Assembly: GCA_023231475.1 (NCBI GenBank)
Contig: JALJEE010001081.1
Coordinates: 62,001-126,000 of the forward strand
Direction: 5' to 3'
DNA length: 64,000 bases
Source of the DNA: Seison nebaliae
Taxonomy: Eukaryota > Rotifera > Pararotatoria > Seisonacea > Seisonidae
Shown here: in pieces, positions 716 to 62,151 of the stretch
Layout of the letters: each line of letters opens with the position of its first letter
Position numbering within the stretch: position 1 is the first letter of the stretch
Notes under the pieces: generated by a model
Seen by the model: only the letters and a program-made list of their open reading frames with translations
The model's database searches: none
Told to the model about the DNA's origin: nothing
Translations under genes and position numbers: made by a program

Positions 716-3700
716 ATGATGGATTCTCAATTATTCGAGTGTTCGCCACTCGTACATTACGAATGTCAAGAAGAAAAGAAAATAGTTAAATTTATTTTCG
801 AGTATAAATAAATAAATTAATTTTCATGATAGTTGAAGAATGAAAATAATTCCATATTACGATTCGTCGATAATTTCGTGAAGTTGAAATACATTTAAAA
901 ATTTTTATAATATTTTTTTCAGTTCGAAGAATTTCATTGAAGATTTGATTAGTTATCGAAAGAAAACTTTTTTCAAATTGATCGGAATTAATGAATTGAA
1001 GTTTTCGATTTCTATTTCCCATTATCATCAATACAATTTGTAGCGATATCGTTTATGTGAATGGAGAAGGATTACATATCGTGAGGAATTGTGGTGATAG
1101 GAAAGTAGTGAGTTTATGGGGAGAGAGTTTATTATCATTCGATCAGATCGTTTTAGAATTATTCACATTAAATTGGACGAACGATAATCAGTTTATTGTC
1201 CTCACTGATAATTTCGGAGATGTTCATCTTTTCGATCGATCGTCGAAATATCTCAATAAATTCTCTCATTCGATGAATGAAGGAGAACAAATGAATTTGA
1301 TGAATTCAGTCGCCTCTCTTCATTCACTCGCTCCTCAAACCAATGAGAAATGTCATTTATTTTATTTGACATATTCCGGTCTACTAATCGAAACATCTTT
1401 AAAGTTTTTTTTTAAATTTTGAAAAAAATTTTTTTTTTTAAAATTTCTTAGAAATAATAATGAATGGAATATACATCGATTATTTTGTTTACCAACCGAT
1501 TATGTGATGTTCGGAACGAATCGATTAGATTTGATTTTTCACAAATCACTTCAATTATCGACGTCCATTCAATATGTGATGGTTTATCTACCTTCCACAT
1601 TCGACGATTATCAGAAAGATCCACATCATCGTCCAATTTATTCGACGAACAATTTATTCATGTTATTGGAAACGACAGATGAATCATTTCAATTGATTCA
1701 TTCCCCAAAGAATAAGTTGGAACGATCCTGGTCATGGTTTAGTAATAAGACATCTTATCAATATGTTGTCGATTCAAAATTGAAAGAGAAGTCGAGTGTA
1801 TTCGTAACGAATAAAGGAATTATCGCCATTTATGATTATGAGAAGAATGAAGAATTATTTAATTTGAATTTAAATCGAGTGAAATTATCGGAAAATTTAT
1901 CAATTTCGACTGATGTACAAACGAAAAATCTTCTCGCTCAATTATATGGTAATTCGAATTTTATTTATTCAAATCATCCAATTTCTATCAATTGGTGGAG
2001 AGATGATGAAAATATCATTTTCTTATCAACATGTAATGGAGCATTGATTTTTATCGATATCGATAAATTGAAAAAAATGGAATTGAATGTGGTCGCTTAC
2101 GAAAAGAAAGATGATGATGATGTTATCGTCAATTATGATTTCTATGCGAGAAATCAATTAACAGATGATGATCTTCGATTGATGGATACGTTCCATGATC
2201 GAGAATTGATCGATCTTACAATGCTCCGATCATCGCCAAACGGAATTTTTCTCGTACATCATTTTCTTCCATTCTCTTTCATTCTCACCCAATGGAATGA
2301 AATGAAAATGTTTAATCTTCTCCTCAAATGTAACGTCATTCAAAAATTCAAAAAATTAGTACCTAATTCAAATCGTTTCATTCGATTATTGAGATATTTG
2401 AATATTCCGTTTTTGTCTGATTTCGTTTGTCCACCAAATGAAGCGACTGTTGAAATGAAATGTGAATTGACAATGAAATCCATCGAATGTATTGGATTGC
2501 AACAATTATTTGAGAGGAAACTCACTCATAAAATGTTCGATGAAGCGTTCGATCTTGTTCAACGATATCCACAACAATTGAACAAAGATATTCTTTTCGT
2601 TAATATCTGGCAGAATTTGGAGAAACGGAAATCGAGTGACATCAACAATTATCTTTTCCATATTAAAGATGTTCGTCTATTAATCGAGCAATGTTTGTGC
2701 ACGATCGATAATAATTTGAATATTATTGGAAATTTGATCGATATCGGAATTGAAAAAACGAATTTCCAAATAATTTTAACACAATTACAATTAGAGGAGA
2801 ATTATCGAAGAGAAATCGACATAATTCATTTGGAATTGACAGAGACGATGGAGAAGAGATTTGGAGAGGAGAAATTTCGGACACTACTCAAATTGGAGAA
2901 GAAAAAACAATTGAAATTTGAAAAAGATTTATTCGAATTAAATAAAAATTGGGAGAAATTAAAAATTGTAAAAAAATGGAAAAATATTTCGAAAGATGAT
3001 ATTGATTCGTTGAATTATTTCATTGAGAAACGTTTGAAAATTTTTCGATATTTCGATTATTTCAAAACATTTCTCGAATTACTCGACGATGTCAATATAT
3101 CGATCGGTCATCAATTAAATGAATTAAGAAAGAAAGATTTATTCGAAATCGCTTGTCAATTGGCAGATAAAGGAAATTTGATTCAATTACGTTCAATTTT
3201 CCAAAATCATCTGAAGGAATTATCATCGAATTATTTCTCCATTCTCCTACACATCAACATGGACAGATGTGAATTGAATGAATTACTTCACGTTATTCCA
3301 CTCGTCGAAGAGAACGATCGAATTGTCATTCCAAAATTTTCGCCTCATCGATCCATTCCTGATTGGACGGAAATTTTGATGGAAATGGGAGACGTCGAAC
3401 GGATCGATGAAAAAATGATTTCACAATGGAATCGTCTCGATCCATTCGATTTGAATGAAATTTATTTATTTTATGTAAAATTCATTCGACACATTCTCAT
3501 CACGAACGGAAATATCGATTTTTCTGATCAATTTTTAAAATGTCTCAAATTGTACGAAATAACAAAAAATGATAATTATCGTCGAATGGAAGAAACTATT
3601 CGATTGATGCATCGATTAACATATGTCAATTATTATTTGGATGATGAGGAATTAGAACGACGATGGTATGTCGTTTATGGAATGAATGATGAAGAGGAAT

Positions 3701-6700
3701 TGAAACGAATTCAAATTCACAACATTCTACCCATCGATTTATTCGATCATTTGATGGAATTGGATCGTATTGATCAATTTATATTTTATTTGAATTTTTT
3801 GGAAAAATCGAAAAATATTTCGAGTCAAATATCATCTCTAACTTATTTAACGGATATATTGGAAGAAAATGATTTTTATGAACGGTTTTTTCCCGTTTAT
3901 CTTCGACATCGATTCGAATCGTCAAATTCTCAATTATTCGAAACGATGAATGAAATTTTGAAAATTTTAAATTATTTCGATAAATTTAATTCAAATCGAT
4001 GTGATTTATTGATCTCTTTCATTTTCTCCAAATATCATCAACATCTCACCATCAATTCCATGAATATCGTTCAGATGGAATGGATTCCATTCATCAAACG
4101 TCAATATAATCATCAACATCAAATTCGACCGTTCCATTCACCGTTTTTCTTCGAAAATTCCGTTTTTAACATTTCTTCCATTTTTGAACTGTTGAAATTT
4201 CTGGATAATTTAAATTTTGATGATGATATTCTCCGAGATTGTTCTCCATTCAATATGTGTCGATTGATGATGAATGAGAATGATTTCCAACAATTCATTC
4301 TCACCATTCTTCAAGTGAGTTGTGAGAAGAGAATTATTAATTTCTCTCTCATCAAACAATTGAACGATATAATTGTTAATATGAAAAAATCATCAGGATT
4401 TATTTTTCCGTTTTATGTCGATTGGATTGTGAGGAATGATGAGAACATATCGGAAGTTTCACTTTCAATACCGTTCATGACGGAATTGGATTTGGAGAAA
4501 TTGAAAGAATATTTTGTTGATATTATTCACGAATCGGTCGATGTTAACTCGATTTTGAAAGATTCAAAAACTTTCATCCAAATTCTTTATCTGTTGAATG
4601 TGAAGAAGAAATCGACGACGAATTGGAAATATGTGAAATGTTTAATCGAAATTCTCCAGAGTGTCATTTTGAGGTATACGAGATCGATGAAATCAATGGT
4701 GAAATCGAATAAGAAAGCGTCCGTTCTATTCTCACAATATTTGAAACGATTAACGGAATTTTCAAAAATTGAACTTTTCACATATCGTATCATGCAATGT
4801 CCATTGATGAGAAATGAAAAAGTTCAGTCGTTGGAATCTCTCGATCAATTGACATCACTTCTCCTTCGATTAGTTAATCGAGTAGATAAATTTGAAAATT
4901 TTTTATTATTCAAAAAACTAATAATCGTTTTTCATGATCTCATTTCCTGTAAATCGATCGATTTGAATGATTTGAATTTGATTCAAAAAATTTTCGGAGG
5001 AAATTCAATTGGAAAATCGATAAATTTCTCTGAATTAACAATTTTAATTAATTTGAAAATTTCCGTTTCACTCAAATGGAAATGGTTATTCGTTCAGGAA
5101 TGTCAATCATTTGTGGAATTGGATGAGAGGAATTATCCAGAGATTCTCATTGGAATCATCAAAATGGAAATGGTAAATTGGGAACAATTGACGGATGATG
5201 TTGGATGGATGAATTGGTTGAAATTTATCGTTCTCTCTATCGATATTTCATCGAATGAATCGATGGAAATTATTGATAAGATAAATGAGAAAATTAAATT
5301 TGAATTTGGTCGTGTCGAATCTAATCCGTTAGCGAAGATAACGAACATTCCAATTATCGATAGTTATCGGAAATTCGTTAGAGAAAATTCTTTAAAAATC
5401 CATCCGGAAACCGTCGTGGAACAGATGGTGATGAATGATTCGAAATGTCCAACGGAAAACATTTACGAAGAATTGAGAATGTTTTGTATTAATCGAATTG
5501 TGGAATTGGGAAAAGTGGAAGATGATCTTGGAATTTATGATATTCCATTAAGAAATTTAATCGAATATTATTTGAGAGTTGATGAAGATAATACGAAATT
5601 AGATGAATTTATGAGAAGAATCGATGACGAACAATTTATACAGAAAATTAACGATATTTCCATCGATATCAATAAATGTCGTCAGGATATGAATTATTTC
5701 CAATTCACGTTAAGTGGATTGGCTTATTCAAAAGATGTGGATCAATTAGAAATTGCTTTATTAATTTTAGAACGATTTGTTGGAGAACATTCGAATGAAA
5801 CGGAATATATGAATGATCGTTTAACTGATATTTATGTCGGTTTCTTCGAATTCTTCTTCGTTAATCGATTAGTTGATGATTTCCCATCAAATTCTTATCA
5901 ACATCTTTATTTAGCTCTTCAATCTTACACGGAACAATTCATCAAATTAAATTCTCTCATCGATCAATCAATTTATCCTATTGGAAAAATTTATGAATCT
6001 TCTTTCAATTTTCTCACATTTGTCTCGTTCAAAGGAATTTTAACGAGTCAAATGGACGAGGAAATTGAAAGAGAATTAACTCGAATTAAAAATGTTGATC
6101 ACATTCTCTCGATTGTCATCCTTCTTTATTTCAAATGGACGATTAGTGATAATGATTCGAATGAATCAGGTTTCCTTCATTGTTTGGTGAGGCTGTTTGA
6201 ATTGAACTCTCCAAATCGCATCATCATTCTTCGTCAAATGAAGAAAGCAAATCAGAAAATAGAAAATATAATTTTCGCACTAATCAATCAATTTCCTAAT
6301 CAGTTACAATTCATCGATATTATTCAATTGATTCCATTAATTGGCGATAAAATTCTTCTAAAATTAACTTTCGATTATATGGTGAATCATGAAAAGGTTT
6401 CCTTTATTTTATCTTTAATTATTTTATTATTTCTTCTTTATTTTTTAATTTATTTATCTTTTAATTATCATCTATTTATCATCTATTTATCCTTTATTAT
6501 TATCGGTTATAGTGGGAAGAATATGAGAGAATATTTATTCATAAATATCTCGAAGATAATTCTACAAATTGGTCGTTCTTCATTAATAACCGAAAATTCT
6601 GTTTAGCTGCTGAACATTATTTCTGGTATAGAGAACCGGTATCATTGTTCAGTTGTGAAATGAACGAATTGTTAATGAAAATGAAAATTGACAACGAAAC

Positions 6701-6983
6701 TAGACAACGTGAAGAGAAGGAGAAATTTCTCTATAAATATATCGAGCTATTGCTAGAGGAGGATGGATCAGACGACATGAGACTTTATTGTACTAATCTC
6801 TTACATCGATTTTTCACCTTGGACAATCAGATGAATGAGAATAATAAGGAGATCTCAAATGACGATACGAATTGTGAAGAAATTGGAAAGATCGATATTC
6901 ATCATCAATTGACAGGACAATCAGTTCGTTTTTTCGATCGATGGTTAACGAATAAACGAAAAATGAACAATTCCATTAATTAA
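716..6983 (+). CDS. NBAS: NBAS (neuroblastoma-amplified sequence) homologue
   Basis: Five exons join in frame: 716-801, 923-1000, 1044-1403, 1452-6396 and 6513-6983, giving 1,979 residues (human NBAS is about 2,370). The N-terminal ~500 residues match the NBAS beta-propeller region, including an INWW...CNGALIF block near residue 355 (human: VNWW...CSGALTV). From about residue 515 the Sec39 region begins, where QQLFERKLTHKMFDEAFDL parallels the human EELYQRKIESEEYEEALSL segment. NBAS is part of the NRZ (NAG-RINT1-ZW10) tether that receives Golgi-derived vesicles at the ER with syntaxin-18, and is also linked to nonsense-mediated decay. The start at 716 is the first of two ATGs in that exon; an untranslated or extra coding exon upstream is possible. 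Nearly the whole protein lies on one 4.9-kb exon. The four introns (121, 43, 48, 116 bp) start GTATAA, GTTTTC, GTTTTT and GTTTCC. Confidence 0.9.
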
Positions 6984-6986
6984 CTC

Positions 6987-6992
6987 AATAAA
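6987..6992 (+). terminator. poly(A) signal of NBAS
   Basis: AATAAA starts only four bases after the NBAS stop codon (6981-6983). TTTATT at 6999-7004, and again at 7075-7080, gives the reverse-strand signal for the convergent gene at 7104, so the two transcripts end within about 100 bases of each other. Confidence 0.6.
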
Positions 6993-7893: not shown

Positions 7894-8436
7894 TCAACCG
7901 TCACGACGGTCAGTTACCGTTCTTGGTAAACGAATGACAGATCCGTCCATCGTCTCATCCACATACACTTGACAACCAAGACGAGAACTGAAAGAAATTT
8001 TTTTAAAAATTTGAAAAAAAAAATTTTTAAAATTTTGCAAAAAAAAATTTAAAAAAATTTGAAACGTTTCCGTCAATTCCGTAGCTAGATCGAGCATATC
8101 TAATTCTTCGTCTAATGCTTCGTCGATGCGAGTGAACAATTCCTTGTCCAAAATGAGGTGACATGTACTGCAAGATAAACTTCCTTCACAAGCTCCAAAA
8201 CCATCAAATTCGATATTATTATCAACAATAACATCATACAATGATGCACCTGTTATCGCCGTCAGATTTTTATGATGTCCATCTCTATCGATAAATGTCA
8301 ATTTAACTTTCCTTCACATCAATGGATGAGGAGTGATGAGGAAGAAAAGGAACTTCGTATTCAATTTGTTAGAGACGGTGAGTGAACGAGATAAATGAGG
8401 TAAAAGTGTTCGAACTGTTCGTTGTAAGAGTGACAT
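7894..8436 (-). CDS. FDX1: mitochondrial [2Fe-2S] ferredoxin, adrenodoxin type (FDX1-like)
   Basis: Three exons on the reverse strand, 8354-8436, 8066-8311 and 7894-7987, encode 140 residues. Cluster ligands are Cys69, Cys75, Cys78 and Cys115, the CX5CX2CX36C spacing of adrenodoxin. ACEGSLSCSTCHL, the acidic LDEELDMLDLA helix (partner docking) and RLGCQ all favour FDX1 over FDX2. Residues 1-27 (MSLLQRTVRTLLPHLSRS...) are Arg/Leu-rich without acidic residues, as expected of a mitochondrial presequence. The protein passes electrons from ferredoxin reductase to mitochondrial P450s and related enzymes. An in-frame TGA between presequence and core is removed by a 42-bp intron (8312-8353, GTTCCT...AAG); the second intron is 78 bp (GTTTCA...CAG). 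The gene is divergent from NLE1 with 173 bp between start codons. Confidence 0.9.
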
Positions 8437-12718: not shown

Positions 12719-15700
12719 ATGAGAACGATCTTCTCCGTTTTGCTCGTGTGTTGGGTGGAAAGGAGTCTCGGAACATTTGACGCTCGGAAAAAACCGCTTA
12801 TACAATTACATTATCATTGTTTGACAAATGAGAATAATGACAAAATATTTATAGATTGTGCTTCGGATGAGAATTCAAAAATTCATATTTTATCCGCATT
12901 CTATGGACGACATTTAAGGAAGCGAAATCAATTCAATTTCAAAAGTAGAAGATGGAAACGTCACACATTAAATACGAATAATGAAATTGATAAGACAGAA
13001 TCGAGAGAAAATCGTAGGACCATTTTACAAAATATGACAACATGGCAAACGCCGTTTAATGGAAATCAGAAGAAATTTCGTCGATTCGCTACTCAATCAT
13101 CGAAATATTTCCATTGGAATTATGAGAAAGAGAAAGAGGATCTGGAGAATAATATGAATGGAAAAAAACGATCAATTTGTCTCGATAATCGATTATATGG
13201 AGAACCGAATGAATTGGATTGTATCGAATATATTAATTTACAGAATGCGTGTAATGGTAAATATAGTTGCACAATTCGTCCACCACCTCGAATTCTTCAA
13301 CGACTCGAGAAATGTGAGAGATTACGTGTCCATTTGAAGAGTCAACGATTCCAATATTATAATTATAAAATGAAAATTAATAAATTTCGTTCGACTCTCG
13401 AACATCTCAAATATTTGCCATTAGTCGATTATCTCGCAATTTATTATCGATGTATACCAAAGAAACAAATACTTTCCATTTGTTCGGTGGCCCCGTCACA
13501 AATAACGTCGTATTGGGGATCGATAATGTCGCCCAATTATCCGTTACCGTTTAATTATCAGAATTTGTTGAATCGTCAAAAGAATGAAATGATGGATAAG
13601 AAGAAATCGTGTTGGTGTCGATTAATATCGAACGAGAATATCAGATTGAAATTGAAAATTATTAATTTTGAATTGGAGCAACCAAATAATCAGAATTGTG
13701 AGAATAGTGGTTTCCAGATTTATACGATCGCCAGAAATTCGATGGATTCAAATACCATCCTCTCCGCTTTCAATCACAATTCGTTAAGAAAACATCTAAA
13801 ACGATCGGGAACTACAACGAAGAATTCGACGAAGAAACTTGATAATTACTTCTCGTTTCCACACGACAATCCGATAAAATATAACAGTGATCGAAATTGG
13901 TATTATAATTGGAATGAACATTATAAGAAATTCGCTGAGCAATTGCAATTCCAATCTTGTACTTTCCTTCAACCCAACAAAGAATGGATCACACCAGATA
14001 ACGGTGATGTCGTTTATCTTCACTTTTATACAAATATCGGTCCATATTCATTACCGAGTGTACGCGGCTCATTCTGGATCTCATACGAAACTGACTCTGT
14101 CACTTATCCGATTAACACGACCTGTAACTGTTCTGTTCCTTTTGACAAGTCATTCTCGTCGTCGAACGACGATTTACACGACTTCGATAACCAATTCCAT
14201 GAATATGAAGAGAACATTTATGGATTGTGGAGAAGACAAGAGAAACAATTGGAAAAGGAACTTCCTCACACGGAGGGACGGGAAAAAGTCAATTATTTCG
14301 AAAAAGCTCATCGACGAGACACGACGACTCCTAATTATGATCCCAAATTAATATTTGCCATCTTGCACGAACAACCCGATCATCAATCGAACGAAGAATT
14401 GTTGAATAAACATGTCCATTACTCGACCATTCCAGCAACTAACCATATTATCGACAAATACGAAACACATCAGTTCTCAGATTCAAATAAATATCTTTCC
14501 ACTTTTCCACCACAATTCTTCACAAAACCACATAAATTCTTCACTAAACCACCACAATTCTTCACTAATCCAACACAACCTTTCACAAATCCACCACAAC
14601 TTTTCACACATCCACCACAATTCTTCACCCAATCACCACAATTTTTCACAAATCCGACACAATTCTTGCCCACTACATCCGAATCTTCTACTGTTGTAAC
14701 AGCGACTTCCACGGATGATGGAAACATTATGATCGACAATTACATGTTCAATGATTCTGTGTTAACTAATGATGATTATTATTTTTTGACTAACCTATTA
14801 GAAATGACGAATGAGGACGATATTGAACTGAATTTGAATGAGATAAATGGAACGTCTTTTCTCACCACAACCCAATCGACAATCGTTAGAGATACAACTG
14901 CCATTTGGAGAATACAAAATTCATCCATCTCATCGACGTTAAAAGAGACTTCCGTTTCCGTCCCAAGTCATCTTCCAACAATTGACTCTACATCAAATGT
15001 TCATAAAATTTATTCAATCGATCAATCTTCTGTCATTCATCTTCCAACGAATTCACCCGAGACATCTTACACGAAACCGTCAACTTACTTTATTAATGAT
15101 ATTCCTCCAATAACCACCTCATACTTCTCCACGACTTCTCCCCTCATTAATTCGACTTCATCCATCGTTCCTTCCATTCCTTCATCCTTCACTACCACCA
15201 CAATTCGTCGTCGAAAAGAAATGGAAAATTCAAAATTCCATTCGAAACGTCTTCCTTCGTCCACACCATCAGCGATGATGAACTTTACGAAACTCACTCG
15301 AATTCAAGTAGATTCAACAACATTCAATCTTCCAATTTATCAGACACAAGCGAACTCGTTAAGAAACCATCATACGCTCCTCAATTCCACCATCATTCCA
15401 ACTAATAGTCAAACACCAAGTTCATTTTAATTTGTTATTTGACTTATTTTTGAAAAAAAATTTGTTTCTAGAAAATAGTTTAATTATTGCTGGATGTCTC
15501 ATCGCGTCTCTATTAGTCATTGGCAATATCATTCTTTTGTTATTGAGACGGTTTTTTTCGATTTTTCAAATTATTTTAATAATTTTCTGATAGACGATCG
15601 AAAAGGAATGGAATGACTTCCTCGTCTCACATAGCGACGACGTCAACTTCAGGAATATTTCCTGAACGTTGGAGCGAATATGCGAAACAGATCAAATCGA

Positions 15701-17769
15701 AACAGAAAACTTTATTTCGATGTCGTCAATCGAATAAGAGTGAACAACGGAAGAATAATGTGCAAATGTATCATCCAGGAAGAAGTTCCTCTACTCTCAA
15801 ATGTCAAAGTGAAATATTCACTTGTGGCAGTCAAATGCAATCGGAATTATCACTATATCAATTATATGGTCAATCGCATGAAATTGAGAATGATATGGAG
15901 AATCAGTTGAATACAACAAAACCTTCAAATTTCATTAATCAATTAATGAATAATGGAAATAAACAATCAACTGATGATATTCATCCAGCTGCTGGTGAAG
16001 TGATTATGTGGTCGAATGAGAATGATGAAGCACTCGTCACCACTGGTGATGGTGAATGGAATCGAATTGAATCACCTTCTTCATTCATCTCTAATAATAT
16101 CCGTTATACGAAATGTGGTTCAAATAATTATGAAATTAATACGACTATACCAGAAGTTATTAATTATAACTCCTCTCAATTATTGCACGCATCAAATATT
16201 AATTCGATGTCTCGATTTCCAACTGATGTCAATTTGAATTATAATAATAACAATAATAAAATCTCTTTCGATTCATCAATTCAACATGAAAGAAAAGAGA
16301 AAGAATGTAATGAAATCATCGTTCAAAATACTGGAACTTATCTCTCATCGTCCATGTCCACGTTGGATTGTCTGGTGAATAAACGGAAGAATTCCATCAG
16401 TAGTTCCAGTCATCCACATCTCAATGATCGTTATCGAATTGAAATCAAATCAAAAAATGGTCTCTACACAAAACATCAGGTGAATTTGTCAGAACCTGAA
16501 AAAAATCGAAATGATTCCTTCACCACCAACACATTCACTAACGTATCGTCAGGCAAATCGACAGGAAGTGATTACTTCCAACGAATTCCAATTAAGTTAA
16601 TTTCAAATTATGAAACTTCATCAACGAACGAATCGAATGATTCAAAATGTTTATTAATTATGGAACTCGATTCTGAGAGAGAAAATAATTCCAATTTCCG
16701 TTCTTGGGAAAATGATGGGAAATGGAAGAAAATATCAGAAAACTCACCCATATTTAACAAAGCCAATTTCCATAAACGACGAAAGAAGAAAAAAAATTCG
16801 AAACATCTTAAACAAAATTATCATTATCCGTTGTCATGGAAACAGAAGTGGAAGAAAAAAAAATCAATTTCTTCCCCAAAAACAATCCCGCGAGTATGGA
16901 ATACTAAATATTCTTCCTCTACAACAACTACTTCAACTGATAGTCATTTATCGATTCATCCGTTAGGAGCGGAATTTGGAACTTTGAAAAGATCTCATCA
17001 AATTCACGAAGAAGATATGATTTTCTACAACTCCATTCCCAAATATGAGCAGAGGAATTGTTCCTATTTTCAAATGACAGGAACAGAATCATCATCGCTG
17101 AGTTTAATATCGAATATTTCAAATTCAACGACGAAAACTGCACCACTCAACGAAATGAATTATCATGAGAATCCAATAAATTTTCATAATTATCGAAAAA
17201 GTTAATTTTCTTCTTTTCTTTCTTTCCATTTTAAAATTTTAATTGTAGATGTAAATCAATCTGATGATTTAGAGAATAATAATTCCATTCCCATCAAACA
17301 TTTTCTCCTCCATCAACATCAGTTGATCTCCTCCACATCCTCTTTCAGTATTTCACTCACTCAAACGAAGACGAAACAATCACCATCTAATTCCACAATA
17401 ACCTTCGACAATTCTCTCTCCGATTCTCCTAAACATAATCAGAAGTTAGTGAAAAGAGGACGTTCTTTTGCGAAACACAACGACAGTCAAACTATGTTCG
17501 TTAAAGAATTAAAGTCGCTAATCGAAGAAAGAAGATGTGACGGCAGAACACATTCCTTAAACACTTCCCGTCCTGAGGTGGAGACAGTTAATGAAATGAA
17601 AGAAATCGAATTTCAACATATTCAACTGAAACCGGTCAATCAACGTCGTTTCGCCTCAATTCCTGCCACAATGGATTCATCAATTATACAATCATCATTT
17701 CAGAAATCAATTGAAAATGAGGAGAAGAGTAACGTACAACGTTTAATTCAAAAATTCTCCAAAGAATAA
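12719..17769 (+). CDS. single-pass receptor-like protein: SUEL lectin + CUB + Pro/Thr stalk + TM + long cytoplasmic tail
   Basis: Five exons (12719-15419, 15472-15550, 15594-17200, 17249-17769; the first three introns 52, 43 and 48 bp separate these four blocks, so four coding exons are certain) encode 1,635 residues. A signal peptide (MRTIFSVLLVCWVERSLG) is followed by a galactose/rhamnose-binding (SUEL) lectin core: FIDCASDENSKIHILSAFYGR, then CNGKYSCTIRP, then LAIYYRC, with long basic inserts between the conserved parts. A CUB domain follows (CSVAPSQITSYWGSIMSPNYP ... CWCRLIS ... NSGFQIYT). Next comes a Ser/Thr/Pro-rich stalk with a 7-residue tandem repeat. The second small exon encodes the membrane helix (LIIAGCLIASLLVIGNIILL) with a basic stop-transfer. 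About 700 polar cytoplasmic residues follow, with no catalytic domain. It probably acts as a cell-surface adhesion or carbohydrate-binding protein. A poly(A) signal lies at 17821-17826. Confidence 0.75.
14505..14670 (+). repeat. 21-bp coding tandem repeat (PQFFTKP-type heptads)
   Basis: About eight degenerate copies of a 21-bp unit encode heptads such as PQFFTKP, PQFFTNP, PQLFTHP and TQPFTNP in the extracellular stalk of the SUEL/CUB protein. All indels keep the 21-bp step, so the frame is preserved. Confidence 0.85.
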
Positions 17770-42963: not shown

Positions 42964-45900
42964 TCAGTTCGGTGGTCTCGGTTCCAATTTCAACGACATT
43001 TCATACAAGTCGTCTGTCCGAATAAATTTTGTGTCATCCAGAAGATAATTCGCCACCTAAACAACAAATAATTATTAAGTAAACTTTAATTAAATTAACT
43101 GTTTGATTATGTGTTAATTTATATGGTACTTCTTGGAAATTCTTAACATCTCGAATGATGAGTGAAATCTAAAAAGAAATTATTGAGAATATTAAAAGGA
43201 AAAATAACCAATCTCATTTTGGAGAAATTGATGAGATTATCATCAATGGTGTCTGGTGTTCCGTCTTCCAGGAACGTCAGATCATGAAGATATGTTCCCA
43301 AATATGGAACGGTAGGTGGATCATGTCTTTTCAGGAGGATTGACGAAAAAGAAAAATGAGAATGAACTTTTGTAACAACTCTCTCATGTTCTTGAACATT
43401 CCATCACTGGAGACAATATTTTGTAATTTTTGAATAGTTTGACGACACTAACAAATGGTGAGAAGAATTATAAGAGAAATGGTGAAGAATAAAAACGTGT
43501 AGATGAGATTCTAACTAATTTCGGTACTTTTTCCCAAGTTCGTTGAAGACGGAAAACTGCCGAGTTATTAAAAGCAGAAATGATTTGGAGAATTCCATTA
43601 TAATTCTGTAACATTCGACAAGTGTCTGCCACCTGTCATAACAACAACATCAATTTTCCGATCAAAATAATCATCAGAATTGAATTGTCCGATGGAAATA
43701 ATATTAAATAGAATTTAAAAATTATTTTAAAAATAAATTTAACTTGAGTCCATTTTTCTATGATACATATTCTTTCGCGAATATTCTTACTTTGTACGAC
43801 TTCGTTCACTACCAATTGAGACATGTGATTGAATCGTGAGCTAACTAATAAGACATGAGATGGTTTCTTTTCTTTATCATCTTTCTCCCATCTCTTACAA
43901 ATGAGTTCTCTAGAAAAGGAAAAATTTTGAAATTAGATCGCATCAAATTGAATTAACTCACTACGAATAAGAGAGAAGAGAAGATGATCCATCAATGTCA
44001 TTTGCTCGGCAATCTCGATGGGCGAGAAAGAAGGATAATTCTCACACTTCTTATCCAAAGTGAAGATTTCGATGGGCGAGATATCATATTTCGTTCTAGC
44101 GTTCAATAATTTCAAGGATTGAACGAATGTTAAATCTCCGGAACTATTTTTCGATTGTTCGTCTGGTCGTTTGGGTCGAATTCCCACGAGTTGTTCCAGA
44201 AGTAGAACTGACGTTCGATATTCAACTTCAGTAACTGATGGAGAATATAATAAATTTTCAAGGAAACTAAAGACTCGATCTTTCAATTCGATGGATTGTT
44301 CGAAATCCTTTATGAAAAAGTTGAGAGAGAGATGAAAGAAAAGAAATAACAACGGCATGTTTGGTGATCCAATGACGGAAAATGTTGAGAACTCTCATCG
44401 TTTTAGCAGTGGGATGTGTTTTCGTTTCACTCATAATATTTGGAGTTTCTATTTTAAATGATGGTTTCATTTGGTGATTTTGTTGTATTTCATTCTTGGA
44501 GGAATTGTCTGATCGATATTGTAATTGTGTTGAAATTGAAGAACCATAATTTCTCTTCGTTGAACGGAACATTGGAGAATCCATTCCAGTGGAAGAACTG
44601 TCGGCGGCTGAATATCTCATGTAATTCATTCCACTTTTTACTTTAGGTTTTGGTAAATTTAAATTATTTTCTATCGCTGATGATCTCTGTCCGGTATTCT
44701 CTTCTTCTTCTTCCTCCTCTTCAAAATCAAAATTTTCAGAAACCGTCGGTAACATGTTCGTTTTGAGTGGTTGTCTCGTTGGCATGTTGTTGTGGAGAGA
44801 TGATAAACTTGGCGATTTTTGAGATCCAGAAGTGGCAAGAGCAAAAGCTGCTGATGCTATTTGACTTGATGATCTGATAGAAAAAAATTTAAAATTGATA
44901 GAAATTAAAAAAATTTTTTTTTTGAAAAAAAAAAAGAACCTTCGACGTCCTATTCGGCCGGCTGTTACGACAACAGCAGGTGAAATTTTACAAGTGGAAT
45001 TTCGATCGGATTGTTTCGCCCGAAGTATCGACACTCTGGGCGAAATTAAAGTTTCGGTTAATCTTTTCTGGAAATCTTCTTGTATCTGCTCCTTTGGATG
45101 ATATTGACGATAAATGGAAGAAAAAATGAATTTTAACGACTTCCTCTAATGGTTTGTCACATCGATTACATCTCGGTCCGTCGATTGATTCGTCTAAATT
45201 AAATTCGATATTTATCGGACTCTCTTCTCTTTCGTCATTCGATGGATCGTTCGTCACTATACTACTGGAATCGAATGAGGCAACTGGTGCCAACAAAGCG
45301 TTTCTTTCATCGTCCTCATGTAACTTCATAGAATCATCTTCCTCTTCATTCTTCTCGTCATCTTCTTCTAATTTATCATCAGTGAGAATTGTTTCTTTAT
45401 TTTCATTTAATTCATTGAAACATTCTTCTTCTAAACTCTGATAAGTTAATGGACGAATAATATCTGCGAATGGAATTAATGAGAATGAAATTAAGATAAA
45501 GTAAAAGAACTTTCAAGTGTTATATATTCCGAATATTTAGTGGGACGTTTTAGAATATTCTCCAGAAATGATTTTCTCACTTTGACGAGATGTTGTGGAA
45601 AATCTTCAACATCTTTCAATTTATCATCCCGATGTTCTTTGTATCCGTAGGAATGTAAGACATCCACAATAATTTTCCCATGTGATTTCTTCGGATATTC
45701 GTACATATTGAATAGAATATCAACAATCGCATGTACGTAAATGTAGACGCGATATGTCAACAGGAATATGTTGAGATAATCGATCGATAAGAATCTCAAG
45801 TCGATTAGACGATCGAGAATTCTTTCAATTTTCCCATAACGAATCTAAACAATAAATCCATTTCATTCCAATAAATGGAAAACTTGTGGTACTTTACACG

Positions 45901-48900
45901 AGTTCAATGCTTTAGCATATTTTATATTGTTGTCATCTTTAAATAATTTCGAATCATTCCTGTTAATTTCAAATCAAGCAAATTATTTCTTCTTAAGAAT
46001 TAATGAGTGCCTAACCAAATAGCCGTATTATAAACACATCGATTCTTCCTTTTGAAAAAGATCAAGATTTAATTGAAAATTATATGAAGAACCTGGCTTT
46101 GGTTGATGATGTTGATAATAAAGCCGTTTCCGTTATGGCACCAGATAATAAATCAGAGAAATGGATATTTTCGATACACTGATAATTTTTAAAGTTTGGA
46201 ACAGAATTTATTATAGTGAGTAGTTAAAAATTGAACTTGAGCGATATCTGCACACCAAGCCTGTTTATCTTCTTCCGTGGCCGCCATGAAGATCATGGTT
46301 ATGGTACTTCTCTTTTTCGTTGATATGACCGCCTCGTTAGTGAATGAATCGGAATCAGTAGAACTTTCATTCGATCGTTTTCCATACTCTTCATTCTCGA
46401 ACACAATTCGAAATTCTCGAGAAACATTTTTACTATTAATTCAAATAATTTATTGGACAAATTAAATTATTTATTAATTAATTTAAATTATTTATTAATT
46501 AATGAAATTGAAGAGAAATTCACCTCAATGCCTTTATAGGATCGGCTTGATTGGTCTCGATCGCATTCTGTTTCAACACGTTAATTAAATGAACGGAAAG
46601 TCTTTGAAGAGAATTATTCTTCCCATTATGTAACATGTCATTACAATCGTTGAAATCTAAAGAATAAAATGATCGACTAAATGGAAAATCCGAATCAATA
46701 ACATAGACAAGATGATACGTCTTCGATTAAAGTGGCATATTTCAATGGAATGACTGCTCCTTCCTAATGGAAAATTTAATTAATTTTAAAGTTAAAAAAT
46801 CAATTTTGAAAAAACGGTAATTCTACCGTTTATTCAACCTTAGCCAATACGAGAAGTCCTTGCGAATTTCGAGTGGTTATAATCATATGATTCGTAAACA
46901 GATAGCATTGTCGAGTCACATCTTTCTTACACGTGATATCGATATTTCTCTCACCTAAAATATTTGCACCTAAAATGCACAAATTAAATTTGAAAAATAT
47001 TTATTTCGATGAAACATAACTGCTATTTGTCATCCGATTAAATGCTTGTTGGAATTTGTTACTTCGTTGACTTTTCATAAGACTACTCATTTGGTGGAGT
47101 GTACCGTTTCGAATCAACGTTTGTGATGTGTCCAATAAAGCCTCACATCCTCCGACGATCATTCTTTCGATACCTAAATTCGTACGGATATTTTCCGTTT
47201 CGGAAATTTCGTTCGACATCTGATTTGACAACTCTTCTAATTTGGCTTTAGCCGATTCCAAACTTTTCCGTTCGATATGTTGATGTGGAGTACGTGCTAG
47301 TAATTCTCCTAAAATGATGATATAATTAGGTATAATTTCCATCGGGAGAGCGAGATACTCCTCCAAAGAATTCCTCATACAATTCGATTGTATTCCTGAA
47401 AGTTTCATCTGACACTCAATTGGAGAAGATTTGGAGTTAAATGGAGAGAAACTTTATTAAAAAAACGATCGAGAGTTTGACGGAACATCGGATAAGTTTG
47501 TTTACACTCCGTCAATATCTGAAGTGAATAATGATGATTCCTGACATAATCTTGATAGATGTGGAGCATTGGTAGTAGCAAATCAAATAAATCACCTTTA
47601 TAAAAAAATTAAATTTAAATAAGGAAAATTTCATGTTAACCCAAAATTAATTTCGGCCAATTCTCCATTCGAACAAGTAGTCCTTTGAAGAAGATTTGAT
47701 GGAGGAATAACAAATGTTCGATATTGAGAAAGATGGAATTAATTTCTTCATGTGATAACGGAGGATTTCTGGAGGAAGCCGCTATACGTAACGGTCTCAA
47801 AATGTATAAGATCACAACTTCTAACGTTCCAACATATCTTATGATTTGGAGAATTTTTAAATTATTATTTTTAAATTATTATCAATAAACTTTTCTTCAT
47901 TCGATAACATATTGAAAACGATACGATTCCTTTGTCGCATGTTGGTGGCGTGTGGCGATTTAATATATTCTTCGACAATATTCTTCCATCTCTTCCGATA
48001 AAGCCAACCGCGACACAATGATTGTACCTTGAAATTGAGATTAGATCCAATCCCTCCAAAAAAGAACGAGAACTTTCTTAATTTTTCGAATTTCATCAAT
48101 CTCCGAATCAGCTATCGTCTTTTGTTTTAAGAGTTGATGTTGTTTTGAATATTTCTTCAATTCTTGTCTCAATTCCTTCACTTCATGTCCTAATTCTTCC
48201 ACTTGATGCATGTACTCCCAGATGGCACATTGAGCTGAATTATACAATTTTTGACAATGTTCATATTTATGAACCCATTGATGTTTCTGGGAGATGGCAT
48301 GATTATATCTATAAATGAAATGAATTAAATTATAAATTTTAATTATATAATTTGAAAGTTAAAAAATATGAAAATTTGAAAATTAAGAGATGGAAATAAC
48401 CCGCATAATAAGAGAGCTTCGGTCCATTCACTTCTAACCGAATCACTTTCAGCTGCGAAATCCAATTGCGATTGTCCATCTCGCGAATAGAGGAGACTGA
48501 AACAATACTAAAATAAGTGAATAAATTATGATCAGAATTATGATAATTGAAAAAATAACGAGATTCCTTTTATCGTTCAATTGTCCAGGAGCGATATTGG
48601 AAGAGTTGTTTACAGTGGAAGTTATGCTGTTCGTACCACTAGTGTTTGGTAAGTTGCAAAAAGGAACATTGAACTTCTCCGTGTACGTACTCTCCAGAAA
48701 GTAGACGTAAAGTAATTTGTTGAGATTGTCATGTTCGAAAATGAAAATGAGATTTTGAAATAGGACGATATGTTTGAGGGACCATTTGACGGAGGAGGTG
48801 GAAGCTTCGGTTGGTCGTTTAATGCGCAAGACACCTTTCTTCGTCGGTTCAAGAAGAGCTCGGGCCGACAACGATAATATTCTGGATTCATTAATTTTTG

Positions 48901-51359: not shown

Positions 51360-54140
51360 TCAAAAAATTGAATTTGCTGAAATATATACTGTGAAGTAGA
51401 GTATCGGTTGTATGAGTATAAGGAGATAAAGGTTATTCTTCAACATTAGTGACCTGTTGGGATTGAAATAAAATGCTTTCGTTGGTTTCGTCCGATCGAT
51501 GAGCACACCGTCCAAAGTGTAAATGATTCCATTATCTGCTCTCATTTCTTCTTTGACCGGTAGTACAATATTCTGCCATTTCACTCGAGTGAATGAACCC
51601 GATTCAAATTGTAACATAACACTACTCTCGTCATCCATCAGTAACGAGTATTTTTTGCTATTTCCCATTTTCTGCGGAGAAACTTCTCCTTGACTGTAAA
51701 TATGTCGCTTAGTGATCGAATCCCTCAATCGGTGGTGATCCGTATTGTAGATCTGAGAGAAAGCTTCATCATTTGGAACGAATATAGTGTACGATTGTCC
51801 ATTAGCAACATCTCTCAATTTGCGGTCATATCCTAAAGTAACGGAAAATTTTTTAAATTGATGGAAATTAAATAGAAAGGAAACCTAAAGCTTTAAGTCG
51901 TTGGAACATTGTAGAATAGTCGTTAGCCGTCGATAATAATTTCCAGATACTTCCCATCTTCAATTTAATCAACGGGTAATTGATGATGTGGAGAACTCCA
52001 TTCGAGGCTTCATAATTTCCTCGACGACTCACACTCTGTCCTATCAAGTGACTGTTATTGAAAGCTGTGAAAGTAGCTGAAGGTAATTTGAGTAATCTGT
52101 TCTCGAAATCATCTCGATTCTTATCAGTCAACGAATATGAAGCGACGTTGCTCTTTCTTATTTGAATTTTGACGGATGGTTCGAACGTATCATAATTCTC
52201 ATCAATTTGGTCATTATATTCGGTGAAAACGGCACCCCGAATAATATGAGATCGAATAAACTAAATATATTAAAACGATGAAAAAAAAGAGACAAATGAA
52301 AATATCTAACTGAATCAACTCTCGCTTGATTCTTCACCAGATTCGTATCATTTTCAATTTGATCGAACATATCAGCTGATGGTGCTAAAACGGTGATATG
52401 ACAACCTTGTTCACAGCCAATCATTCTGAATCGACTAATCATTTGTTCTTTACATCTGTTGATTAATTGTAAACGATGTTGATGTTCCTCTTGTTTATAC
52501 TACAAAATGATAATTCATAATAATCTTTTAAATTTGAATAAATTTGAAATTTAAACTTTCATTTCTAAAACGTTTTTGAAATCAGATCGTTTCAATTCCT
52601 CCTCACTCAACTCATTTGACGTTTGTAGAATGTTGATAATTGGATTGGGGAAAACTGAGAGAATATTTCGGACATTTGGACTTCCCAATTTATGAATAAA
52701 CGACAAAAAACGACGTGCATGACGGTCCATCGTCACTGTCATTGTTTCCGTGGTGAAATCAAGTAAACAATCGATGAGATGAATAACGGACGTGCGGAAC
52801 ATTATATTACCATTAACGATTTTACATCGACGATTGCCACTAATCACCAGAATCGTATCATCATATCGTTGAAAATAAATTTTCCTTTTCTTCGCTTCAT
52901 ATTTCGGATCACTAAACGTTTCATATTGTGTGTCATTCATCATATTCTCAGTGAAGACAGCACGTTCCGGTATGATACTCGCCGTCAAACTTTGTATGGT
53001 ATCGAACGTGATATTTTTCCATCCTAATCGATATCGATCCGCTAAGGAAACGGTCGAACAATCTTCGGGTATTTTAGCTTGACCTTTATACAAGAAGAAA
53101 TCGAGAACTGTCGTCATTGCGTGATCGATAGGAAGGAAATATGTTCCTTGTTGTTCGAGTGTTCTCGGGAAATGTTGATATAATGTGTTGATACTCGATA
53201 AATTAGTAATTAATAATTGATTCAATTTCGAAAGACTGGGAGTTTTACTGATATAAGTGAAAACATTATCCTCTTTCGGAATTTTCAATCGTTTGGAAAT
53301 TAAATACAAATTACCATTCTTCGTTTTGATGGCTGACGCACAAACGAGTGCATCATTTACTGTAAACAATTTATAGAAAGTGGAATATAATTCATTGAAG
53401 CCTTGATTGATCAGAATTTCTCTTTGCACTTTCACCGTTACGTTTTTCTTCTTTTTCTTATTATCCTTCGGATTTGAACGTCGATGAGAAATAAAACTTG
53501 GACGTTTAGAAATTCGAACTTTCTTTCGAATTCTCTCAACATTCTTCAATCTAATTTGATTCTTTCGTCGAATTTCCAATTGCTGATAAAGTGGCGATGT
53601 CTCGTCATATAAATGCCACAAAGAATCTTTACAAGAGGTCGATTCGAAAATTGAACCGAATGGATTTGTTAGATCGATATACTTCTTCGTTTCACCAATG
53701 GTGAGTGAGAAGGATTTATCTCGATAAAATGTCACTGGCTGGTTATTGTACAGTGCGTCTTTTCTGACAATTTCCGTTTGAATTTTATCGTCATCGAGAA
53801 CATTCTTTACTAAATGATAAAGATATTCATTTTCTTTATTCATCGCATACTGAAATTCGTTGGATTTGGAATCATCGTCATCCTCTGTATTTCCATCATT
53901 CAATTCGAATGCGTCGTTTATGGGAGCGAAGAATGTCAACATCGATGTCGTATCCTGGAGAGCGGCTTTGATGTGATGGAGATTCGATATGGATTCACGT
54001 AACTTCTCCAATTTCGGATGTTTCATCACCACATCATATAGAGTGTCACTTGACAATGAACGGGAGAGATGGATGATTGGAAAGATGAACAATATCAAAT
54101 GGAATATCCTCATGGAATGAACAGCAGTTGCCAAGAACAT
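51360..54140 (-). CDS. Fas1: Fasciclin-1-like GPI-anchored adhesion protein, four FAS1 domains
   Basis: Four exons on the reverse strand (52557-54140, 52311-52499, 51885-52260, 51360-51832) give 873 residues from the first ATG. The second ATG at 54113 places MRIFHLILFIFPIIHLSRS as an N-terminal signal peptide and may be the true start. Four FAS1-type segments follow, each with the [TLV]-F-x-P-x-[DN]-x-A-F-like strand: MLTFFAPINDAF; YFLPIDHAM with TENMM; TVLAPSADMF with IRSHIIRGAVFTE; and YTIFVPNDEAFSQI with TLDGVLID. A basic loop (KDNKKKKKN) interrupts the second. The C terminus (LMLKNNLYLLILIQPILYFT) is hydrophobic without a cytoplasmic tail, as in GPI anchoring. Four FAS1 domains plus GPI match insect Fasciclin-1, a neuronal cell-adhesion molecule, rather than midline fasciclin or periostin. 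Introns are 57, 50 and 52 bp, all GTT...AG. Confidence 0.85.
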
Positions 54141-59074: not shown

Positions 59075-59512
59075 ATGAAGAATTTGTTCTTTCTTTTCAT
59101 CTTTCTCGTCCACGGACAATTTTGCGAGCAACATTTCGTGGTGAAAGATGGTTGGCAAGTCGAAGGTACTTTCGGTCGTTTCATGGATCTCTTACCAGAC
59201 AATGATCCTGTCGGTCATGAATATGATCGACAAGTTGGCGCTTCATTGTCATTCTCTTGGCCGTCGTCAGTCGTTAGTGCGAATATCGGATCATCCGATC
59301 TCATGGATTTACCGTACAATTTCCGCAATTTACCTGACTATAATGCCGCAATCGGTACCATAACCAAAGTGTGCATCGAAGCATGTTCAAAGGATATGAG
59401 TTGTCGTGCATTTAACATTAATTTGGATCGTTTCCGTTGCGCTTTCCTCCAAGACGTGAGACATTTGGAGAGAAAATCTTCTTCGATCAGTTTGGTGCCA
59501 AATCAATTATAA
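59075..59512 (+). CDS. small secreted protein with a PAN/apple-like domain
   Basis: One intronless frame of 145 residues. A signal peptide (MKNLFFLFIFLVHGQFC) precedes a domain in which TKVCIEACSKDMSCRAFNIN, followed by RFRCAFLQD, gives the Cys pattern and aromatic-Asn motif of PAN/apple modules (C...C...C..F......C). PAN domains bind proteins or carbohydrates outside the cell. The upstream half (VEGTFGRFMDLLPDNDP) is unlike a second PAN repeat. There is no membrane segment or GPI signal, so it should be secreted. It shares its 3' end with the Ly6 gene on the other strand. Confidence 0.65.
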   Translation: MKNLFFLFIFLVHGQFCEQHFVVKDGWQVEGTFGRFMDLLPDNDPVGHEYDRQVGASLSFSWPSSVVSANIGSSDLMDLPYNFRNLPDYNAAIGTITKVCIEACSKDMSCRAFNINLDRFRCAFLQDVRHLERKSSSISLVPNQL

Positions 59513-59615
59513 AATTATTTGAAAAAAAAAAATTTAAAAGTTATTTTAAAAAATTCAGTATTGACTCTTTAAAAAGATGTTTGTGGAATGATGATGTTTC
59601 AAAATGTTTTCGGAC

Positions 59616-59628
59616 AATAAAATTTATT
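59616..59628. terminator. overlapping two-way poly(A) signal
   Basis: AATAAA (59616-59621, + strand) and TTTATT (59623-59628, AATAAA on the reverse strand) lie back to back. They follow the PAN-like gene by ~100 bases and the first Ly6 gene by ~40 bases, and so serve the two convergent transcripts. Confidence 0.6.
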
Positions 59629-59668
59629 TTCTTTTAATTACAAAATTATTAATTAAATTATATCCAAT

Positions 59669-60110
59669 TCATTTGAGGAGAAAGAAAGAAATTGCGATTG
59701 TTAAGATGATAAGATAAGATTGTTGACTAAAATTAGTCGCTGAGTTGCACAAATTCGTTTTACAACAATATGTCGCTTTATAGTATCGTTGTTCGTAATT
59801 GACCTCATTCAATTCGGCACAACTCGGTGCGTCACATGTTCTCTCTACCACTTCCTTCCCATTAAATCCGACGACGATCCTTTTCTACGAATAAATAATT
59901 AGTGTAGAAATAAGTGAAGGAATTACTAACGGCACATGCTCCTTTACACGGAAGAATTAATACGGAACTAGACGAGTTTAAATTTTTTTTTGCACTGCAT
60001 TCCTTACTTGCTGGACATCCGTAACAGTACAAACCGTCATTGAGCGAATTAACGAAATAAGGAAGAAGAGTGATGAAAATGAAGAGTAATTGAATGTTAT
60101 TAAGTTTCAT
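59669..60110 (-). CDS. Ly6/uPAR three-finger protein, GPI-anchored (first of pair)
   Basis: Two exons on the reverse strand, 59931-60110 and 59669-59884, joined across a 46-bp intron (GTTAGT...TAG), encode 131 residues. The signal peptide ends near FVNSLNDG. The mature part has ten cysteines in Ly6 order, starting LYCYGC and ending in the diagnostic CCKTNLCN. The C terminus (SYLIILTIAISFFLLK) is a hydrophobic GPI-addition signal. Family members are extracellular three-finger proteins that often modulate nicotinic receptors, ion channels or septate junctions; the partner of this one cannot be read from sequence. It faces a second Ly6 gene 466 bp away. Confidence 0.85.
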
Positions 60111-60576
60111 GGTGGAAAAATGATGATGTTGATGGTGGTGGTGATGATGGTGATGGAATGAAGGAGTTTTATTTAAGGAAAAGGAAAGTGGCTTACAAGA
60201 AGACGTTCATAATTCCACTTTCCCATCGAGTTCAGCTGTGAAGACATGGGTAAACAAAGAGGAAACTGACAACGAATAAAAAAATTATTTGGAATTGGAA
60301 TGAAAGTTTTTGTCTCATTTCCATATAACGGTTCTCCCCCATCCTCCTCTCAATTGTTAATCGAGTAAATTGTGAATAATACTACGCAATGATCTGTTTG
60401 TCTGATATGACACGCAATTATTGACATAGTCTCCTCTTCTACTTGAAGAGAATAAAGATAATATCGAATAATTTCAACAATTTCCATAATTCATTCGGTT
60501 CGGGAGAATCTCTTTGGAAAACATTTTTCATACTTCACTTACATTTCATAAAGAAAACTCATTTCAATATCGATTA
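60111..60576. promoter_or_regulatory. shared region between divergent Ly6 genes
   Basis: These 466 bp separate the start codons of two head-to-head Ly6 genes and should contain both promoters. A GATGGTGGT-rich run lies next to the reverse-strand gene (about 60120-60158). No further elements recognised. Confidence 0.4.
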
Positions 60577-61104
60577 ATGTCAATCCATCATTCCTATTTA
60601 TTTCTGTTGACGATTCTTCATTTGTCAAGTTTCACTTCTCTAAACAACTTCTCTAAACTTTTATCCTCTTTTGATAGTTAAATTTGGAGAAAGTGTAAGA
60701 TGTGTCGCTTGTGACTCCATGACCCAACCGACATGTACTGCCAATTTGACGTATTCGACATCTCAAATAGCGAAGACGAAAGCTGACGGAATTAGTTCGC
60801 TTGAATGTGGAGGAATTTGTCAAGTTACTTTATTTTCTTATTTTAAAATATTTTAAAAAATTAATTTTAGAAAATCATTTATAGAAAAGGATCTCAATAT
60901 GGGCAACCAATAGGAGCCAAACGATCATGTGGTACTGCATGTAATGAAGTGAGGAAACAGGAATCAGGAACATTTATTGAAATTAATTGTTGTAACGATA
61001 AGGATTATTGTAATGGCTCATTTACCATCAATTCATTGAACTTCATTCCATTATTTACACCAATTCTCATCATCATTACTTTTCTGAGAGAGATCATGAA
61101 ATAA
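60577..61104 (+). CDS. Ly6/uPAR three-finger protein, GPI-anchored (second of pair)
   Basis: Three exons (60577-60628, 60678-60823, 60871-61104) give 143 residues. The signal peptide is MSIHHSYLFLLTILHL. Ten cysteines follow in Ly6 order, beginning VRCVAC and ending INCCNDKDYCN, with an N-glycosylation site (NLT) after the third. The C-terminal IPLFTPILIIITFL is a GPI-type hydrophobic tail. Introns are 49 bp (GTTTCA...TAG) and 47 bp (GTTACT...TAG); without them the frame hits stops in both places. It is a diverged paralogue of the Ly6 gene at 59669-60110, transcribed away from it. The stop codon lies inside an AATAAA (61100-61105), which may double as the poly(A) signal. Confidence 0.85.
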
Positions 61105-61202
61105 ACATGAAACATTTTTCAATAATATATACAATGAATTGAAATTTAAAATGAAAGATTTTTTTTTTTTAACGAAAATAAATTGTAGAAACGAAACGAA
61201 AT

Positions 61203-62151
61203 TCATCCATCGTCTCCATAACGCGCTTTTTGTGTATCCGATAAATTCTCTTCTTTTTTCAACGACAATTTCCAATTACGAGAACCGACCGAAAATTGGT
61301 TAGAATCGACTATGAGATTACTTAAATTTTTTAATGATCGATTCTCCACATTATCATGTTGACGGAAACTTCGAATTTCATCATCGATCTCTTTTAAATT
61401 TTCTGATTTAATTTTATCTAAAGAACAATTTGTTAACGGAGAGAATTAGATCGAGGAAACTTTCAGTATTTTTGAAAAAATGTTCTAAAGAAATTTGTTT
61501 GTCGATTTGTTCGTATTCGAACGCCTGAACGATCATGTCCATCACATCCAATTCCTTCACATATTTCGCTTCAGCTGTCGATTGATTCTCATATTCCTTT
61601 AATGAATTTAATTTAAAATTAATTTGGAAATTAGTAAACGAACTTGCCAAATGTCGAAAATATTTATACGAATATCTTCATTCGGTATTAGAGATATGAT
61701 ATCTTGAAATGATTTCTGACAAAATAATTTTATAAAATTATTTTTTAAATAATAAAAATTAGAAACAAATTCTCTTCGATGTTTTTCTTCTTTTTTGATG
61801 TGATCAGCTGGAATGAGATCTCCAGTGAGACATTCGGCCAAATCGTGAACAACGGCCATTTTCATACATCTAAATCAGGAAAACGGTATAAGAACCATCA
61901 AAATCGATTAACTTCGTCATATCGATGCCTTTGGGATTATCGAGTGTCAATGTCATCAACGTCATTCGATACATGTGGGAACTGATTGTTTCCACATTAT
62001 CGTACACATGAGAATGAATCCAACCACTTCTTAAAGTTCTCTGGAAAAGAAATGGAATAAACAGGAAATGGAAGAGAAATGGAAAAAAAACTTTCGTTTG
62101 ACCGATAACTAGAAGGAATTCCAAGATATCACTAATCCTCTTTTTTGACAT
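61203..62151 (-). CDS. HDDC2: HD-domain 5'-deoxynucleotidase HDDC2 homologue
   Basis: Six exons on the reverse strand (62092-62151, 61913-62040, 61767-61869, 61644-61715, 61461-61596, 61203-61417) give 237 residues (human 204). Metal-binding HD-domain residues are visible: His42 (SSHMYRM), His71-Asp72 (MAVVHDLAE), and the following GDLIPADHIKKEEKHRRE and EYENQSTAEAKYVKELD blocks, all closely matching human HDDC2. The family removes the 5' phosphate from deoxynucleoside monophosphates in the cytosol. The last exon adds ~70 polar residues that are longer and more diverged than the human tail; its join at a 43-bp intron (GTTTCC...TAG) rests on reading frame alone. All five introns start GTT. The 3' end lies 98 bp from the convergent Ly6 gene; the 5' end is 103 bp from the next divergent gene. 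Confidence 0.9.

Follow-up and report, generated by a model that had tools for sequence, protein, structure and literature searches.

Introns starting with GTT and a matching base change in most detected U1 snRNA genes of the rotifer Seison nebaliae

Introns of Seison nebaliae, a small marine rotifer found on crustaceans, begin, in almost every case examined, with GTT and not with the customary GTA or GTG, both inside and outside the window, i.e., the whole stretch of 64,000 nucleotides from contig JALJEE010001081.1 that was analysed, and this shift is confirmed. In the same genome, three of the four detected U1 genes have A in place of U at position 6 of U1 snRNA, the position facing intron position +3. 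The explanation considered very probable, as read from these sequences, is a compensatory co-shift of U1 snRNA and 5' splice sites in this species. Most U1 genes would have undergone the U-to-A change at position 6, and this A (A6) would pair with the U at intron position +3. The donor would then have become A or G followed by GUU instead of AG followed by GUR, with G at +5 losing its weight and +3 turning into the dominant position after GU.

Introns were placed by a gene HMM from coding content and reading frame, any GT...AG being permitted, in the window, in four short loci and in another 200 kb of this genome. This input of about 275 kb represents about 0.8% of the genome, the assembly of which comprises 36.0 Mb in 846 contigs. 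The published Seison assembly amounts to 43.9 Mb and, thus, the smaller one used here may be a filtered or different assembly; the main text of that publication refers to introns in two places and never to snRNA (PMC8351084). COX1 has no match in the assembly used here. A mite origin, which the matches of the NLE protein had suggested, was rejected; in a tree, this protein sits on a very long branch. Without any donor model, the HMM placed 111 introns, with A, C, G and T at +3 in 8, 13, 9 and 81 cases, respectively. A trained donor model from which +3 was left out yielded 127 introns (4, 7, 8 and 108), and the trained model including +3 yielded 126 (1, 2, 6 and 117). Among 5832 other GT sites of the same genes, which served as decoys, T comes next in 37%, a background against which 108 GTT introns out of 127 have a binomial p of about 2e-28. 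Introns starting in the window are GTT in 35 of 40 cases when +3 is left out of the donor model and in 38 of 40 when it is included, each set of 40 containing one intron that extends beyond the window end, while outside the window the +3-blind run gives GTT in 73 of 87. Moreover, loci outside the training set show GTT in 13 of 14 introns and GTC in the remaining one (METTL16-like gene, 2; LUC7, present in three overlapping loci and counted once, 3; the gene of locus L037, 3; U1-70K, 4; U1-70K neighbour, 2). Roughly one intron in two is under 60 bases long, and in the +3-blind run GTT starts 86 of the 96 introns of up to 130 bases and 22 of the 31 longer ones, for which placement is less certain.

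After GU, position +3 is the sole strongly informative position of these donors, with 1.18 bits beyond GT, whereas -2, -1, +7 and +8 carry 0.22–0.26 bits each. The weight of G at +5 has been lost (0.01 bits), 53% of introns follow an exon ending in A, and G is scarce at +4 (5%); both the near absence of +5 G and the predominance of a final exonic A had been noted in the original prediction. Human donors are, after GU itself, most conserved at the G that ends the exon and at the +5 G (PMC8283771). The possibility that GTT merely reflects T-rich introns or the way introns were placed would find some ground in the 49–61% of T at +7 to +10 and in the share of decoys followed by T. However, T at +3 reaches 85–93%, far exceeding the 36–37% at the neighbouring +4, and introns whose positions follow from published protein models owe nothing to the gene HMM, so that an artefact is given a negligible probability.

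Two public Seison protein models, P0121 (SNEBB_008601, G6PD) and P0241 (SNEBB_007626, RasGRF), which are themselves predictions for hypothetical proteins, match the DNA over their full length. At each junction, the shortest intron restoring the protein was taken and all slides of that length were listed; GT-AG ends leave exactly one placement at 28 of 28 junctions, and the resulting introns comprise 27 GTT and 1 GTG. Instead of the purine at +3 and the G at +5 of U2-type donors, these junctions have T at +3 in 27 of 28 and G at +5 in 2 of 28. The RasGRF model matches the minus strand of the window letter for letter (Table 1) and has 24 introns, 23 GTT and 1 GTG, one more than the 23 counted at first; its GTGAAT exception, already pointed out then, stands. 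Three +3-blind calls in the genes of these two models were not GTT, and two of them became GTT when corrected by the published models, namely 15563–15620 to 15563–15602 in G6PD on contig C208 and 45092–45140 to 45086–45137 in RasGRF; the third is the GTGAAT intron itself. The initial observation that introns here start with GTT, put at 41 of 43, is confirmed; the 43 introns listed were distributed over seven named genes and not the eight announced. The other exception proposed, GTATAA at position 802 in NBAS, is unsupported, since in the gene-finder model it falls inside a predicted 575-base GTT intron (348–922). As a separate observation on G6PD, the second-best match of P0121, P0122, bears the name of a pitcher plant, Sarracenia purpurea; this entry is probably animal contamination and, as a guess, perhaps derives from a pitcher-dwelling rotifer.

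Table 1. Introns of the window, with donor (the slash marks the exon–intron boundary), position in the window, strand and basis of placement.
Intron	Donor	Position	Strand	Basis
RasGRF	AACA/GTTAAT	43057..43099	-	exact map of published model P0241
RasGRF	ATTG/GTTATT	43169..43208	-	P0241 map
RasGRF	AAAA/GTTCAT	43327..43367	-	P0241 map
RasGRF	ATTA/GTTAGA	43448..43515	-	P0241 map
RasGRF	TCAA/GTTAAA	43633..43743	-	P0241 map
RasGRF	GTGA/GTTAAT	43910..43957	-	P0241 map
RasGRF	CGTT/GTTATT	44308..44350	-	P0241 map
RasGRF	GAAG/GTTCTT	44874..44939	-	P0241 map
RasGRF	AGTC/GTTAAA	45086..45137	-	P0241 map
RasGRF	GAAA/GTTCTT	45464..45510	-	P0241 map
RasGRF	ACAA/GTTTTC	45845..45883	-	P0241 map
RasGRF	TTTG/GTTAGG	45960..46015	-	P0241 map
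RasGRF	CCAG/GTTCTT	46049..46092	-	P0241 map
RasGRF	TCAA/GTTCAA	46179..46236	-	P0241 map
RasGRF, exception	TGAG/GTGAAT	46433..46523	-	P0241 map
RasGRF	CTAT/GTTATT	46657..46702	-	P0241 map
RasGRF	TAAG/GTTGAA	46764..46838	-	P0241 map
RasGRF	AGCA/GTTATG	46970..47020	-	P0241 map
RasGRF	TAAA/GTTTCT	47409..47452	-	P0241 map
RasGRF	TTGG/GTTAAC	47596..47640	-	P0241 map
RasGRF	AAAA/GTTTAT	47838..47890	-	P0241 map
RasGRF	GAAA/GTTCTC	48028..48073	-	P0241 map
RasGRF	GCGG/GTTATT	48309..48400	-	P0241 map
RasGRF	TCTC/GTTATT	48508..48559	-	P0241 map
FDX1, joins LTE-T-SRLGCQ	GAAAC/GTTTCA	7988..8065	-	adrenodoxin homology
HDDC2	GAAA/GTTTTT	62041..62091	-	locally ungapped alignment to human HDDC2
HDDC2	CGAA/GTTAAT	61870..61912	-	locally ungapped alignment to human HDDC2
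HDDC2	GCAA/GTTCGT	61597..61643	-	locally ungapped alignment to human HDDC2
HDDC2	GAAA/GTTTCC	61418..61460	-	gene finder; weakly aligned stretch
Fas1	TTAG/GTTTCC	51833..51884	-	gene finder only
Fas1	TTCA/GTTAGA	52261..52310	-	gene finder only
Fas1	GAAA/GTTTAA	52500..52556	-	gene finder only
SUEL/CUB	CCAA/GTTCAT	15420..15471	+	gene finder only
SUEL/CUB	GACG/GTTTTT	15551..15593	+	gene finder only
SUEL/CUB	AAAA/GTTAAT	17201..17248	+	gene finder only
NBAS	TGAA/GTTTTC	1001..1043	+	gene finder only
NBAS	TAAA/GTTTTT	1404..1451	+	gene finder only
NBAS	AAAG/GTTTCC	6397..6512	+	gene finder only

Homology fixes further junctions. Human DDX39B (UAP56) aligns with its Seison counterpart ungapped over all three GTT junctions, and more junctions come from a PKA-like kinase, G6PD, HDDC2 and FDX1; the first kinase junction and one G6PD junction lie in gapped stretches and were left out of the evidence. 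In FDX1, for which GTT introns had been claimed, one is fixed by adrenodoxin homology. Of the five introns credited to HDDC2, four start with GTT; locally ungapped blocks of the alignment to human HDDC2 hold three of these, and the fifth candidate, of 3366 bases, is doubtful. The first intron of U1C has the donor CAAA/GTTATA; the junction MPK/YYCDYC fixes it, with just one GT-AG placement available within the range examined. U1-70K apparently contains an intron with a GTC donor, AGAA/GTCGAA (L038:1980-1985), a rare exception whose flanking homology was judged by comparison with human U1-70K; by the same comparison, another U1-70K junction looks misplaced, and it is GTT in either placement.

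Few RNA stretches in eukaryotes are as conserved as the base-pairing end of U1, whose position 6 is a pseudouridine in other animals. In Seison, at least four U1 snRNA genes score above the gathering score of Rfam RF00003 (97.4–112.9 bits vs 69.5), a count that is a lower bound because 41 of 293 candidates were scored. Three of them start with AUACUAAC and one with the usual AUACUUAC. The 5' end reads AUACUAACCUGG in L001 and L003, AUACUAACUUGG in L004 and AUACUUACCUGG, which is also the RF00003 consensus, in L002, the canonical AUACUUACCUG being present in L002 only and absent from the three A6 genes. L001 and L002 are located tail to tail on C208, 1.5 kb apart, L003 on C647 and L004 on C762; since an A6 gene and the ordinary gene share contig C208, their coexistence does not come from mixing the two described strains of the species. 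An exact scan of the genome for ATACTNACYTGGC returned the four U1 genes and one further site that lacks a U1 fold. This last one, C629:103997, was discarded as a fifth U1 gene and attributed to chance, as it combines a 13-base match to the 5' end with no U1 match, and a reversed control pattern has 6 genome matches.

Apart from position 6, the A6 genes resemble canonical U1 in fold and stem-loops, and the Sm site AAUUU precedes the last hairpin in all four genes. The loop AUUGCAC of stem-loop 2, which is bound by U1A, is retained in L001, L003 and L004, whereas AGAGCAC replaces it in L002 (gene at L002:1501-1664). A 3' box, AATTAAACT, lies 9 bases past the Rfam end in all three A6 genes and is also found in U5 (at 12) and in the U2 gene L028 (at 19); it is one mismatch off in L002 and in the U2 gene L029, and absent from the U2 gene L030. 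This motif was chosen by eye from the same snRNA genes; in about 1700 genomic pieces of 40 bases, it never occurs exactly and occurs within one mismatch in 2.2%. Upstream of the snRNA genes, the sites returned by a motif search lie at varying distances, and no convincing shared promoter element emerged, with a score of 70.3 vs at most 66.3 in 12 shuffles that had fewer restarts. We take L002 to be a copy that is minor or of ancestral type and possibly still works.

In the helix formed by U1 and the donor, +4 faces U1 position 5 (PMC10581693) and, consequently, +3 faces position 6. The U6A change thus turns the mismatch of a GUU donor at +3 into a Watson–Crick pair, in register. When all 27 single-base variants of U1 positions 3–11 were ranked by mean pairs per donor, U6A came first, gaining 0.82 pairs per donor vs 0.21 on decoy GT sites; it kept this rank in 1000 of 1000 bootstraps and also in the set of 28 published introns, 27 of which gain from it. 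With A6, 108 of the 127 +3-blind donors pair better, 4 worse and 15 the same, and the corresponding numbers for decoys are 2184, 973 and 2675; decoys also pair somewhat better with A6 in this T-rich genome. The A6 copy L004 additionally carries C9U, a change that allows pairing to the A now frequent at -1 in these donors. This variant ranks second of 27 in the gene-finder set (+0.27, in 817 of 1000 bootstraps) and fourth in the 28-intron set, so that its fit to the donors is suggestive only. Mean pairing with A6 amounts to 5.0 of 9 positions and, therefore, other signals must help in donor recognition. We infer that A6 U1 RNAs are made, constitute the majority and select the GTT introns; L002, with its usual 5' end, would be minor or serve the few GTR introns.

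The opposite assignment, in which the A6 genes would be minor variants or pseudogenes, L002 would be the working U1 and GTT would derive from a U1 snRNP protein, Prp8 or a U6 modification, is judged quite unlikely. It could draw on the score of L002, comparable to that of the best A6 copy (112.4 vs 112.9 bits), and on the +4 shifts of Saccharomycotina, which have been associated with METTL16 and SNRNP27K rather than with any change in U1 (PMC10581693). Nevertheless, it is L002 that is devoid of the U1A loop kept by all three A6 copies and has the imperfect 3' box, theirs being perfect, and for a single change at random, the chance of being the best fit among the 27 is 1 in 27, although the three copies may share one event. 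Also speaking against this assignment, METTL16 (PF05971) and SNRNP27K have family matches in the Seison genome; LUC7, U1C and U1-70K have them too. A change of U6, U5 or U2 as the cause was rejected, since their recognition sites are all unchanged: the ACAGAG box of the one U6 gene found is identical to the Rfam consensus, the recognition sequence CGCCUUUUACU of the one U5 gene found is canonical, and so is GUAGUA in the three U2 genes found. The original prediction had anticipated a changed U1/U6 contact or a changed recognition factor; it is supported with respect to U1, and the U6 box is unaltered. As far as tested, the change appears confined to U1.

The co-shift may also extend to a division of work among U1 classes, with A6 RNAs taking the GTT introns, ordinary U1 the few GTG or GTA introns, and the A6/U9 form preferring A before GTT, a refinement whose odds overlap with those of the co-shift and which we hold to be possible but rather doubtful. 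Three kinds of U1 5' end do coexist, and GTG and GTC exceptions do exist; however, these exceptions are few, and among 117 GTT donors no association at p <0.05 was found between the base at -1 and those at +4 to +7. Somewhat more credible, albeit still tentative and short of even odds, is a lineage-wide recoding in which a suppressor-type U1 would have become the main one, donors would have moved from GUR to GUU, +5 would have been released, and the other U1 copies (A6 plus U9; ordinary U6) would share the other intron classes.

In laboratory suppressor U1 snRNAs, a base change at the 5' end rescues a mutated donor through pairing. The Seison A6 form differs from them in being natural, in occupying most gene copies and in matching donors sampled across the genome. 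In the literature searched, with subscription journals mostly outside its scope, no report of an animal with such a matched change of U1 and donors was found, and this U1 change is absent from the available text of PMC7738191, PMC8907322, PMC10125929, PMC2518118, PMC3464624 and PMC2483917. Entamoeba histolytica shares U at +3, its donor consensus being GUUUGUU, and earlier work cited in the same source described splicing without U1 snRNA in this organism, pairing with U6 being suggested (PMC6085484); in contrast, Seison has a changed U1, an unchanged U6 box and no +5 G. In Saccharomycotina, +4 A/U donor switches likewise constitute a lineage-wide shift at a single donor position, but U1 is untouched: its ACUUACC and the ACAGA box of U6 are invariant, U1 candidates of 236 of 240 genomes (230 Saccharomycotina and 10 outgroups) all carry ACUUACC, and an A at U1 position 5, named as a possible compensation for +4, was not found there (PMC10581693). 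The diplonemid S. specki has, like Seison, a U1 with an altered 5' end beside the ordinary one; the altered end consists of consecutive C residues and is about as complementary as that of ordinary U1 (PMC12621601), and, unlike in Seison, no consensus shift by one matching base accompanies it. In the literature searched, a matched pair of U1 and donor such as that of Seison is absent from Entamoeba, fungi and the diplonemid.

A natural change in the 5' end of U1 that is matched by donors wherever sampled indicates that a conserved rule can move. It becomes testable which changed first, U1 or the donors, how an intron-rich animal passes through the mismatched stage, which the remaining ordinary U1 may have helped to bridge, and what share of donor recognition lies on U1 rather than on U6. 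A practical consequence is that Seison introns may be misplaced by gene finders built around GTRAG.

Some observations concern other parts of the splicing machinery. A query with the spliced leader of bdelloid rotifers gave 0 genome matches at up to 3 mismatches. In a search for a branch site, enriched words such as TTTCAA (22 of 90 short introns vs 5.4 in shuffles) came out as no more than candidates. The three U2 genes (L028–L030) have small insertions relative to Rfam near the 5' end, outside the branch-site pairing motif, namely UUUUAUGGC in two copies, UUUUAUCGU in L030 and CAAUGUG in all three. L030 (L030:1501-1702) has many broken stem pairs in addition to its missing 3' box and looks like a decaying copy.
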